Position numbers and translations under genes: made by a program | Shown here: piece by piece, positions 58,524 to 62,016 of the stretch | How positions within the stretch are numbered: position 1 is the stretch's first letter | Layout: every line of letters begins with the position of its first letter | The notes under the pieces: generated by a model | Told to the model about the DNA's origin: nothing | Seen by the model: only the letters and a program-made list of their open reading frames with translations | Database searches by the model: none | Source of the DNA: Nitrospirota bacterium | GTDB lineage: Bacteria > Nitrospirota > Nitrospiria > Nitrospirales > UBA8639 | Assembly (NCBI GenBank): GCA_029864405.1 | Contig: JAOTTP010000005.1 | Span: forward strand, 1-64,000 | Length of the DNA: 64,000 bases | Reading direction: 5' to 3'

Positions 58524-58674
58524 CCGTGTCTCATCGTATCCTGGATGGAAGGTCTTTTACCTTCTGTACGGCCAGTTCTCAAGTTTTTTCCTTCCTCCCC
58601 CGGCTTTATTTTTCTGCTCACTGGCATTTATGTGAATGAATGAGAGATGCCGGGTGTCGGCGCGGCAGCCGAGC

Positions 58675-58696
58675 CACTTTTGTTTCGGCAAAAGTG
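58675..58696. repeat. Perfect 8-bp stem hairpin within a repeat-like segment
   Basis: CACTTTTG (58675-58682), loop TTTCGG, CAAAAGTG (58689-58696). No T-run follows. It lies in a segment that resembles common intergenic repeats. Confidence 0.5.
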
Positions 58697-59100
58697 ACCA
58701 AAACCAGTGACGCCCCACCCGTCCTCATGAGATTGCTCGGACTCAAAGCCCAGGAAGGCGGACCAACTCGCGGGGCTCACACAGGCCCGCCAGGAAAAAG
58801 AGCGTCCGATCACGGGACGGGCGGCAGGCGTCGGACCATGGGAAGGGTAGGGGCAGCAGGGAATTAAAAGTTGCAGCCAGCCTTTTCCTTCATCATTTTA
58901 AAGAAAAGAATGCCTTATGGAATTCCTTACAATATTATAATTCTCCCGTTCCATTCCTTCCGCACAGGCTTTACTTTTTTCGAGCCACTGTCCATCATAA
59001 GCGAACGCAGAATTCTTGGATGCTAAGGCTCTGTGTGAAGAGCCAATAGACCAATGTGAGAGGGCCGTAGGGTTAGATAATCAAACCGGGTTCACTTGAG

Positions 59101-62016
59101 ATGCCAAGAGAAATCAATCCCGCTCTTTCTGCAAATCAGCCACGGATTTTCCTGTCTTACGCTCGGAAAGATGGGGAGGCCTTCGCACGTGATCTCCGCC
59201 AAAAACTCACCGCTCACCCCTTCTCCCTCTGGCAGGACCGCACCCAAATGGAAGGGGGCAAAGCCTGGTGGGATCAAATCCTGGAAGCTCTCAAGCAGGT
59301 GGAATATATGGTGCTGGTCATGACTGAAGCCGCATTGGCCTCACCGGTGGTCAGAAAAGAATGGCGGCAGGCCCGCCAGGAAGGGGTCGGCGTCATTCCG
59401 GTCTTCGGTCAACCCGACCTGGATCTGTCTCAACTTCCTCGCTGGATGCGGGATGTGCATTGGGTCCATACCGAGGTTCCCGAGGAATGGACACGTTTCA
59501 TTCGCACGTTGGAAAGCCCCCATCAGGGCACGCGGGTGCCGTTCATGGCCGATGACCTGCCCATTGGGTTTGTGCCCCGGCACAAAGAATTTCAGGAATT
59601 GGCCGGAAGTTTGCTGGACCCTGAACAGGAAGAACCCATCGCCATCACCGCGGCCCTGAAAGGGGCCGGTGGATATGGCAAAACCACACTGGCCAAGGCT
59701 CTCTGCCATGATGACCGGATACAAGAGGCCTTTCACGATGGCATTCTGTGGGTCACCCTTGGGGAACAACCAAATACCATAGCCGGACTGACGAAACTCT
59801 ATGCAGCCTTAACCGAGGAACGTCCCAACTTTGTAGACGAAGAAGATGCGTCGGCCAGGCTGGCGGAAGTCCTGGGAGACAAAGATTGCCTGATGGTGAT
59901 CGACGATGTCTGGAATGCCGTTCATCTGCGTCCGTTCCTGCGTGGAGGCAAGCGCTGCGCGCGGATCATCACCACCAGAGACAGCACCACGCTTCCTGCC
60001 ATCGCCAGATTCCGGGTGCCGGTGGATGCCATGCAACGGCAGGAAGCCTTAGCCCTCTTGGCCTTCGATCTGCCGGCCAGTGCCTTGCGGGAAGGAGAAA
60101 CTGCGGCGCTTCAATCTTTAGCTGCACGATTAGGGGAGTGGCCTTTTCTGTTGAAATTGGCTAATGGCGTTTTGAGGGAGCGGGTAAACACCATGGGGCA
60201 GTCCCTTTCAGCGGCACTCACTTATGTGCAAAAAGCCTTGGACAAGCGTGGCCTCACCGCTTTTGATTCCAGAAATCCAGTCGAACGCAACCAAGCTGTA
60301 GCTGCCACACTCGGAGCCAGCTTCGAACATCTAAAAAAAGACGAACTCTCCCGCTATCAGGAACTCGCCATCTTCCCCGAAGACGTCGAAATCCCACTCA
60401 CCGCGGTAACAAAGCTCTGGGGCACGACCGGTGGTCTGGACGACTTCGATACAGAGGAACTCTGCACGCGGTTGAACCAATTGTCGCTTCTATTAAAATA
60501 CGATCCCACGACTCAACACATCCAACTGCATGACGTGGTGCGGACTTATCTGGAGCAACAAGTTTCCTCGCAATTACCGGCACTCCATGGACAATTTCTG
60601 GATGCCTATGACCTGAAGGATGAACCAGCCAAAGCCGCCCATGATCCTTATCTCTGTCGTCACTTGGCCTATCATCTGGTCAAGGCTGAACGGTGGGAGG
60701 AGCTAAAAACCCTCCTCCTGAATGTGGACTGGCTCTATGCGAAGTTGGAAGTGATGGATGTGCCGGCTCTGCTCTCCGACTTTGACTGGTTACAGAACGA
60801 AAAAATCTTCACCTTGGTCCATGGTGCTATCCGACTTTCAGCGCATATTGTGGGAAAAGATCCGAAGCAACTGGTAGGGCAATTGTTGGGTCGTTTACAA
60901 GCCGATCTTTCTCCTGGAATTCAAAACCTGGTCGAACAGGGAAAACAATGGGAAAAAAGTCCATGGCTTCGACCGCTGCAAGTTCACCTGATTGGTCCCG
61001 GCGGTCCACTCATTCGGACTCTCAGCGGGCATAGTGGCGTTGTGAACGCGGTGGCGGTGACGGCGGATGGGAGGCGGGCGATTTCTGCCTCGTCCGATCA
61101 GACGTGCATCGTGTGGGACCTGCGCACAGGGCAGGGCCTGCATACCCTCACTGGGCACAGTGCCTGGGTGTGGGCGCTCATTGTGACGGCGGATGGGATG
61201 CGAGCGATTTCGGCCTCTGGTGATCAGACGTGCAAGGTGTGGGACCTGTGCACGAGACAGGAACTGCACCCCTTATGGGGGCATCGTGCCTCGGTCAGGG
61301 CGGTGGCGGTAACGGCGGATGGGGCACGAGCCATTTCGGTCTCGGATGATGAGACGTGCATCGTGTGGGACCTACGCACAGGGCAGGGCCTGCACACCTT
61401 ACGGGGGCATAGGGGTTCAGTGAGAGCGGTCCCGGTAACGGCGGATGGCACACGGGCGGTTTCGGCGTCGGGTGATCGGACGTGCATCGTGTGGGACTTG
61501 CGCACGGGGCAGGAGCTGCACACTTTATGGGGGCATAGGGGCTGGGTGGGGGCGGTCGCGGTAACGACGGATGGGAAGCGGGGGATTTCGGCGTTGGAAG
61601 ATAAGACATGCAAAGTGTGGGACCTGTGTACCGGGCAGGAGTTGCACACCTTACGTGGGCATCATGACTCGGTCAGGGCGGTGGCGGTGACGGCGGATGG
61701 CACACGGGCAATTTCGGCCTCGGATTATCGGACGTGCAAAGTGTGGGACATGCGCACGGGGCGGGAGCTGCACACCTTACGGGGGCATAGGGGTTCAGTG
61801 AGAGCGGTCGCGGTAACGGCGGATGGCACACGGGCGATTTCGGCGTCGGAGGATCAGATGTGCAAAGTATGGGACCTGGCCAGTTATGAGGAAGTCGCCA
61901 CCTTTACTGGAGAGAGTGCAATCAACTGCTGTGCAGTTTCTCTTGATGGCAAAACGATTGTGATTGGAGAATCGTCCGGCCGGGTGCATTTCCTTCGTCT
62001 TGAAGGAGTTGATTGA
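59101..62016 (+). CDS. TIR / NB-ARC / WD40 NLR-like protein, probable defence protein
   Basis: A 971-residue three-part protein. Residues 13-140 are a TIR domain (RIFLSYARKDGEAFARDLRQ, SLWQDRTQMEGGKAWW, VEYMVLVMTEAALASPVVRKEW); E87 is at the place of the catalytic glutamate of NAD-cleaving TIRs. Residues about 155-500 are NB-ARC: P-loop GAGGYGKTT with K194, Walker B LMVIDDVW (264-271), TTRD (291-294), GEWPFLLKLANG (345 on), and LHD (476-478) at the MHD position. A helical linker leads to eight WD40 units (638-971). In bacteria such STAND proteins sense a phage product with the repeats and trigger TIR killing by NAD loss; this role is inferred. No ribosome site is clear; no partner genes adjoin. 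Confidence 0.88.
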   Translation: MPREINPALSANQPRIFLSYARKDGEAFARDLRQKLTAHPFSLWQDRTQMEGGKAWWDQILEALKQVEYMVLVMTEAALASPVVRKEWRQARQEGVGVIPVFGQPDLDLSQLPRWMRDVHWVHTEVPEEWTRFIRTLESPHQGTRVPFMADDLPIGFVPRHKEFQELAGSLLDPEQEEPIAITAALKGAGGYGKTTLAKALCHDDRIQEAFHDGILWVTLGEQPNTIAGLTKLYAALTEERPNFVDEEDASARLAEVLGDKDCLMVIDDVWNAVHLRPFLRGGKRCARIITTRDSTTLPAIARFRVPVDAMQRQEALALLAFDLPASALREGETAALQSLAARLGEWPFLLKLANGVLRERVNTMGQSLSAALTYVQKALDKRGLTAFDSRNPVERNQAVAATLGASFEHLKKDELSRYQELAIFPEDVEIPLTAVTKLWGTTGGLDDFDTEELCTRLNQLSLLLKYDPTTQHIQLHDVVRTYLEQQVSSQLPALHGQFLDAYDLKDEPAKAAHDPYLCRHLAYHLVKAERWEELKTLLLNVDWLYAKLEVMDVPALLSDFDWLQNEKIFTLVHGAIRLSAHIVGKDPKQLVGQLLGRLQADLSPGIQNLVEQGKQWEKSPWLRPLQVHLIGPGGPLIRTLSGHSGVVNAVAVTADGRRAISASSDQTCIVWDLRTGQGLHTLTGHSAWVWALIVTADGMRAISASGDQTCKVWDLCTRQELHPLWGHRASVRAVAVTADGARAISVSDDETCIVWDLRTGQGLHTLRGHRGSVRAVPVTADGTRAVSASGDRTCIVWDLRTGQELHTLWGHRGWVGAVAVTTDGKRGISALEDKTCKVWDLCTGQELHTLRGHHDSVRAVAVTADGTRAISASDYRTCKVWDMRTGRELHTLRGHRGSVRAVAVTADGTRAISASEDQMCKVWDLASYEEVATFTGESAINCCAVSLDGKTIVIGESSGRVHFLRLEGVD
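61012..61890 (+). repeat. Array of near-identical 126-bp WD40-coding repeats
   Basis: GTGTGGGAC-type words recur every 126 bases at 61111, 61237, 61363, 61489, 61615, 61741 and 61867 (the last as GTATGGGAC). Each unit codes 42 residues (LHTLxGHxxxVxAVxVTADGxRAISASxDxTCxVWDL). The unit at about 61390 and the one at about 61768 are almost identical for 80 bases. Variation falls at the few positions marked x. Confidence 0.9.

Follow-up and report, generated by a model that had tools for sequence, protein, structure and literature searches.

STAND ATPases whose WD40 propellers were amplified recently are described, together with TIR-bearing partners and disrupted copies, by Pereira and Lupas, and a role in bacterial innate immunity is proposed (PMC9218822, citing Dunin-Horkawicz et al. 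2014). One of them, Npun_R6612 of Nostoc punctiforme, builds two 7-bladed propellers from 14 blades that are nearly identical (PMC9218822). The title of PDB 2ymu speaks of a 'highly repetitive propeller structure'. WD40 proteins are called Highly-Repetitive when six repeats have pairwise identity of at least 0.7, and Moderately-Repetitive at a cut-off of 0.4 (PMC5587647); hotspot diversity in highly repetitive members was noted earlier by Hu et al. (PMC5587647). Among the fungal HNWD NLRs, positive selection is reported at codons 7, 9, 25, and 27 of the repeat, beside the conserved codons 8 and 26 (Paoletti et al., PMC1805685).

The sequence analysed, called the window, is a 64,000-nucleotide stretch of a Nitrospirota bacterium (GTDB lineage Bacteria; Nitrospirota; Nitrospiria; Nitrospirales; UBA8639), namely positions 1–64,000, forward strand, of contig JAOTTP010000005.1 in assembly GCA_029864405.1. 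The value added by this locus is that several sister species can be compared at one slot, with clean empty sites.

Architecture and predicted fold

The gene and its parts are as follows.

59101..62016, + strand: whole gene, a one-gene unit from ATG to TGA, encoding a 971-aa protein with the order TIR, NB-ARC, helical arm, WD40
59146..59475, + strand: TIR domain, aa 16–125 (Pfam)
59359-59361, + strand: putative catalytic Glu87 in S-x2-V-x2-E-W (alignment of 11 sequences)
59590..60096, + strand: NB-ARC core, aa 164–332 (Pfam), with P-loop GAGGYGKTT, Walker B VIDDVW, and sensor TTR
60097..60951, + strand: HD1-WHD-HD2-like helical arm with LHD motif (H477), from phmmer alignment to Apaf-1
61012..61026, + strand: N-terminal velcro strand predicted to close the propeller (AF2 strand 21–25 of the 354-aa model, aa 638–642)
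61027..61908, + strand: seven 126-bp WD40 units, starting at 61027, 61153, 61279, 61405, 61531, 61657, and 61783
61390..61469, + strand: 80-bp tract, copied at 61768-61847 (378 bp, or three units, downstream; 2 mismatches)
61909..62013, + strand: divergent closing unit, strands a–c of blade 8, conserved as the C-terminal end in all orthologues

Pfam E-values for the ORF are 1.9e-19 for TIR_2, 1.5e-16 for NB-ARC, and 1.4e-57 for WD40. Residues 153–613 align with Apaf-1 122–583 (phmmer, E 1.9e-23); NB-ARC, winged helix, and helical arm are therefore all Apaf-1-like, with TIR in the place of CARD. The match to the SARM1 TIR is restricted to aa 11–81. Motifs were aligned between the window protein and ten relatives from Nitrospirales and Chloroflexi (11 sequences). 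In this alignment S19, Y20, W44, D46, and W88 of the TIR, G188, G191, G193, K194, and T195 of the P-loop, D268 and D269 of Walker B, and T291, T292, and R293 of TTR are invariant, and the putative catalytic E87 is kept in 10 of the 11. Judged by its motifs, the ORF qualifies as a TIR-STAND (NB-ARC) NLR-like protein, having an SY-motif TIR with the putative Glu, an intact P-loop, Walker B, and sensor 1, and a candidate C-terminal repeat sensor. PADLOC matches span the TIR or generic repeats only; its TIR-NLR model (PDLC03015) gives no full-length match but a weak one to the TIR alone (21 bits, 2.7e-05). No defence genes were seen among the immediate neighbours, which are PhoD-like, uncharacterised, amidase, and DUF559 genes.

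Chloroflexi relatives L039 and L041 occur as adjacent pairs of ORFs of ~1350–1390 aa, both with WD40 and at least one with TIR, and recall the coupled STAND pair of cyanobacteria. In another Nitrospirales genome (G107), a long repeat-rich WD40 ORF (L021) has, by eye, a DUF4062 TIR-like resemblance (RIYLSSTYIDLKAERQ...).

The sensor part (aa 618–971, 354 aa) was modelled with AlphaFold2. The WD40 portion has pLDDT 90.7, pTM 0.87, and 32 strands, i.e., 8 x 4. The first strand (aa 638–642) lies just N-terminal of unit 1, and the velcro-strand segment PGGPLIRTLS is conserved among orthologues. The best solved structures in Foldseek are 8-bladed (ODA16, TM 0.91, rmsd 1.2; Tako8; Fbw7), and 7-bladed ones reach a TM of ~0.7 only. 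Because of the strand count and these matches, the sensor is predicted to be a single 8-bladed propeller with velcro closure. A two-propeller AF2 model of the 14-unit G013 orthologue, with 2 x 7 blades in view, reaches a pTM of 0.50 only.

Repeat units and the location of their variation

The array, from aa 643 (61027) to 61908, is made of seven units, all in frame and each exactly 42 codons long, and a degenerate eighth unit (GESAINCCAVSLDGKTIVIGESSGRVHFLRLEGVD) follows at 61909-62013. TRF finds a 126-bp period (6.8 copies, score 911) and a 378-bp one (score 1114). Both analyses bear out the seven 126-bp units proposed in an earlier note on this DNA. The extent given there, 61012-61890, was slightly short: the velcro strand occupies 61012-61026, the units continue to 61908, and the eighth to 62013. 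The 80 near-identical bases reported 378 bp apart between units four and seven were also recovered, with two mismatches in 80 between 61390-61469 and 61768-61847, against at least nine for the best 80-mer at any other tested unit offset. Such a tract points to a single event of copying or gene conversion, comparatively recent, linking the junction of units 3/4 with that of units 6/7; it does not point to recent expansion of the array as a whole. The description of the units as "so alike" and "recently expanded" was overstated, since the tract is exceptional, unit pairs are 67–85% identical in nucleotides and 57–79% in amino acids (mean 0.68), and no exact internal repeat is longer than 42 bp. 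Recent high-identity expansion is rejected on that repeat length and on dS between units of ~0.5, compared with 0.45 in flanking genes between the window and sister genome G013. On the same grounds, an assembly artefact is judged unlikely for the window array; it is plausible for those of two other sister genomes, G015 and G017. The best six of the seven units have a minimum identity of 0.62, which passes the Moderately-Repetitive cut-off and falls below the Highly-Repetitive one.

Mean column entropy is 1.60 bits at positions 3, 4, 5, 7, 23, and 25 versus 0.52 at the remaining positions. Positions 5, 7, and 23 are presumably the WD40 top-face hotspots, as assigned from WDR5. With V6 and D24 as the conserved residues, fungal codons 7, 9, 25, and 27 correspond in our own mapping to unit positions 5, 7, 23, and 25, where mean entropy is 1.71 bits versus 0.67 overall (permutation p = 0.0004). 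The clustering of variation after GH and around the tetrad Asp, as first described, is thus real, but it is not confined to the sensor face: the most variable single column is position 16, in the bottom loop, and positions 42, 33, 10, 28, 35, and 36 are variable too. A share of the variability at 33–41 is due to unit 7, which ends at the conserved C-terminal boundary.

Long WD40 arrays of the same order without a P-loop pattern (L017, L018, L019, L020, L022, and L023) served as controls. Their "non-NLR" status means absence of that pattern from the ORF and, for L017, also a WD40 start near the N-terminus; Pfam finds only beta-propeller models among the best 25 families in these proteins. The ratio of top-face to remaining entropy is 3.09 in the window, 2.04–2.90 in orthologues, and 2.06–2.65 in controls. 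Top-face variation is a general trait of repetitive WD40 arrays and no NLR signature. Because the non-NLR arrays show the enrichment, somewhat more weakly, it is not diagnostic of NLR recognition, and top-face variation alone is a weak argument for recognition.

The chromosomal slot, blade turnover, and selection

Twenty genomes of the genus, the window genome included, were compared. The TIR-NB-ARC part is present in five (window, G013, G005, G015, and G011); in G017, whose contig breaks off inside the array, the same slot contains the array end, bringing presence to six of 20. The slot lies between PhoD-like and uncharacterised genes on one side and a carbon-nitrogen hydrolase (amidase) gene on the other. 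In the window, its nearest neighbours are the uncharacterised gene (57605) and the amidase gene (62322). Eight of the 20 genomes have clean empty sites, with the same flanks 33–419 bp apart and no NLR remnant. On the flanking-gene tree (FastTree, some weak nodes), carriers pair with non-carriers: G005 with G004, G015 with G003/G016, and G017 with G018/G009. Several losses or replacements in one slot are therefore needed. dS in the NLR backbone is 0.79 between the window and G013 (flanking genes 0.45) and 0.83 for G015 (flanking genes 0.49); this excess could reflect allelic replacement by recombination, or merely a different codon constraint.

Insertion of the gene by a mobile element was considered and not retained; the empty sites hold no NLR remnant, and an insertion boundary was not identified. 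The spacer upstream of the gene contains a dispersed repeat of ~200 bp (58648-58845), with 46 full or partial matches at 67–93% identity, itself excluded, in the incomplete 2.9-Mb genome. This left spacer can be aligned among NLR-bearing relatives; at the empty sites, matches are mainly to its initial ~200 bp, which do not include the repeat. The deletion at this slot is larger in G014 (L106): the PhoD-like and uncharacterised neighbours were not found in the sequence stretch of that genome, and YihY almost adjoins the hydrolase. The orthologue of G011 (L037 / L048), also in this slot, has in-frame stops or frameshifts and two identical top-face quartets, owing to decay or to low-coverage assembly error.

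Full units number seven in the window, 13 in G013, 15 in G005, at least 10 in G017, one in G015 (plus the closing unit), and two in G011, where the frame is broken. Bins G015 and G017 are fragmented, and their counts may reflect assembly. The difference between 7 and 13 is robust, because exact repeats do not exceed 42 bp in the window and 37 bp in G013, whose array lies on a 1.78-Mb contig of a genome in ~7 contigs. The first strand and last unit match by position across species; interior units have no one-to-one correspondence. They cluster by gene in G005 and G017 and are intermixed between the window and G013. In comparisons with G005 and G017 units, the signal of concerted evolution is clear, identity being 0.66–0.76 within genes and 0.63–0.65 between them. 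For the window and G013 it is 0.755 and 0.722 within and 0.719 between, so that homogenisation since their split has been weak. The quartets of residues at 5, 7, 23, and 25 are all distinct in the window (7/7), G013 (11/11), and G005 (14/14), and none is common to any two of the four long arrays. Both repeat number and variable residues differ in all the sister species compared, as the earlier reading predicts, instead of being the same in all relatives.

Within-array dN/dS is 0.43 in the window, 0.40 in G013, 0.27 in G005, and 0.23 in G017. Dividing top-face pN by the pS of the array gives 1.16, 1.09, 0.78, and 0.63, respectively. M2a brings no gain over M1a in any array (p = 0.87, 0.13, 1.0, and 0.79 in the same order), and a FEL-type test of the window array alone finds no site. 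Positive selection at the codon level, a check proposed in the earlier note, is accordingly not detected in the window array. With window and G013 units together, the FEL-type test gives position 33 (p = 0.03, uncorrected), and with 45 units from six genes pooled it gives position 23 only (dN/dS ~6, p = 0.009, uncorrected for 42 sites). Both kinds of test assume a tree and repeats recombine, so the results are indicative only. The top face is under relaxed constraint; diversification is hinted at for one position at most. The backbone of intact copies has dN/dS ~0.1, and the protein is therefore under selection.

Interpretation and relation to known systems

On balance, the window protein is probably a single-gene NLR-like receptor that has TIR as its effector, is most likely directed against invaders, and carries a sensor evolving by blade turnover; the ligand, NADase activity, and immune role are those suggested by family knowledge. 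Its TIR effector would be joined to an Apaf-1-like switch, made of NB-ARC and helical arm, and to a sensor in the form of an 8-bladed WD40 propeller that the N-terminal strand closes. The top face of the propeller would bind a protein ligand, probably from phage or another invader, upon which the NB-ARC may swap nucleotide and oligomerise, and the clustered TIR domains would consume NAD+, leading to cell arrest or death. The sensor presumably changes by duplication, deletion, and gene conversion of interior blades between two fixed end pieces, such that fold residues would be retained and top-face residues would be free to vary.

The strongest rival is a near-neutral array, a serious possibility if not the likely one: blades duplicate and decay, purifying selection maintains the fold, and the top face is irrelevant to folding, with no diversifying selection and no repertoire. 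Within-array dN/dS of 0.23–0.43, top-face pN/pS near 1 (0.63–1.16) and not clearly above it, the failure of M2a to improve on M1a anywhere (p 0.13–1.0), entropy ratios of 2.1–2.7 in non-NLR arrays next to 3.1 in the window, and the stop-broken copy of G011 all agree with such drift, which accounts less well for position 23 in the pooled units and for the constrained backbone of intact copies. Somewhat more doubtful is the extension of the receptor reading to a one-slot bacterial NLR repertoire, in which alleles gain and lose blades and exchange top-face residues at the positions used by fungal allorecognition NLRs. Specificity would then be rebuilt by shuffling, through convergence or deep conservation, and kept as presence/absence and length polymorphism. 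This proposal on specificity by blade turnover is directly testable, because the slot is clear, the empty sites are clean, and the counts of 7 and 13 are robust in two assemblies.

That the differences in repeat number are largely artefacts of short-read metagenome assembly is improbable. Short reads lead to misassembly of fungal HIC arrays (PMC12222747), G005 has an 88-bp exact repeat, and the shortest and the cut array, those of G015 and G017, come from fragmented bins, but the short exact repeats of the window and G013 and the 1.78-Mb contig of the latter argue against this explanation. It is very improbable that the protein serves conspecific self/non-self recognition, in the manner of fungal het-d/het-e, and not phage sensing. 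Patchy presence among sister species and the high variability of the fungal positions (PMC1805685) would suit such a role; the protein, however, has NB-ARC and not NACHT, its effector is TIR_2 and not HET, it has no known polymorphic partner gene, and bacterial STAND/TIR proteins such as Avs5 are more commonly found to be anti-phage (PMC12931631).

The preferred reading, a TIR-bearing NLR-like receptor with blade turnover, can be set beside four described groups. Apaf-1 has two propellers, of 7 and 8 blades. The window protein shares with it the order NB-ARC, helical arm, WD40 and the similarity over aa 153–613, and differs in having TIR where Apaf-1 has CARD and in that the Apaf-1 blades have diverged. 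Prokaryotic Highly- and Moderately-Repetitive WD40 proteins are alike in high internal identity and in diversity at predicted top-face hotspots (PMC5587647).

Fungal HNWD NLRs (HET-D/HET-E/HET-R of Podospora anserina) also have 42-aa WD40 units that vary in number and are exchanged (PMC1805685, PMC12222747), the same variable positions, fixed divergent C-terminal blades, and an N-terminal velcro strand. They have HET-NACHT instead of TIR-NB-ARC, and their units are 80–100% identical, under significant positive selection, and have HET-C as known ligand, in all of which the window protein differs (PMC1805685, PMC12222747). Fungal HIC NLRs are recognised by within-gene repeat identity above 80%, length variation among close relatives, and positive selection at top-face codons. 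Here identity is lower (67–85% nucleotide, 57–79% amino acid), length varies between species rather than strains, and the window array lacks detectable positive selection; because of identity and selection, the protein is not classed as a fungal-type HIC NLR. By analogy, it may work similarly. The fungal pattern seen in the earlier note thus holds for NLR architecture and for the coincidence of variable columns with fungal selected codons, not for identity or positive selection.

Earlier work has described TIR-STAND-WD40 proteins whose propellers are repetitive (WRAP), and the window protein fits that kind. From the WRAP proteins and Npun_R6612 as described, it differs in joining TIR, NB-ARC, and WD40 in one chain, and in having one predicted 8-bladed propeller with units ~68% identical, not near-identical. 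In common with them it has a STAND ATPase with a C-terminal repetitive WD40 propeller and a TIR (on the STAND partner in WRAP), amplified and disrupted copies with a proposed role in innate immunity, and a first strand, distinct and conserved, that lies outside the amplified part.
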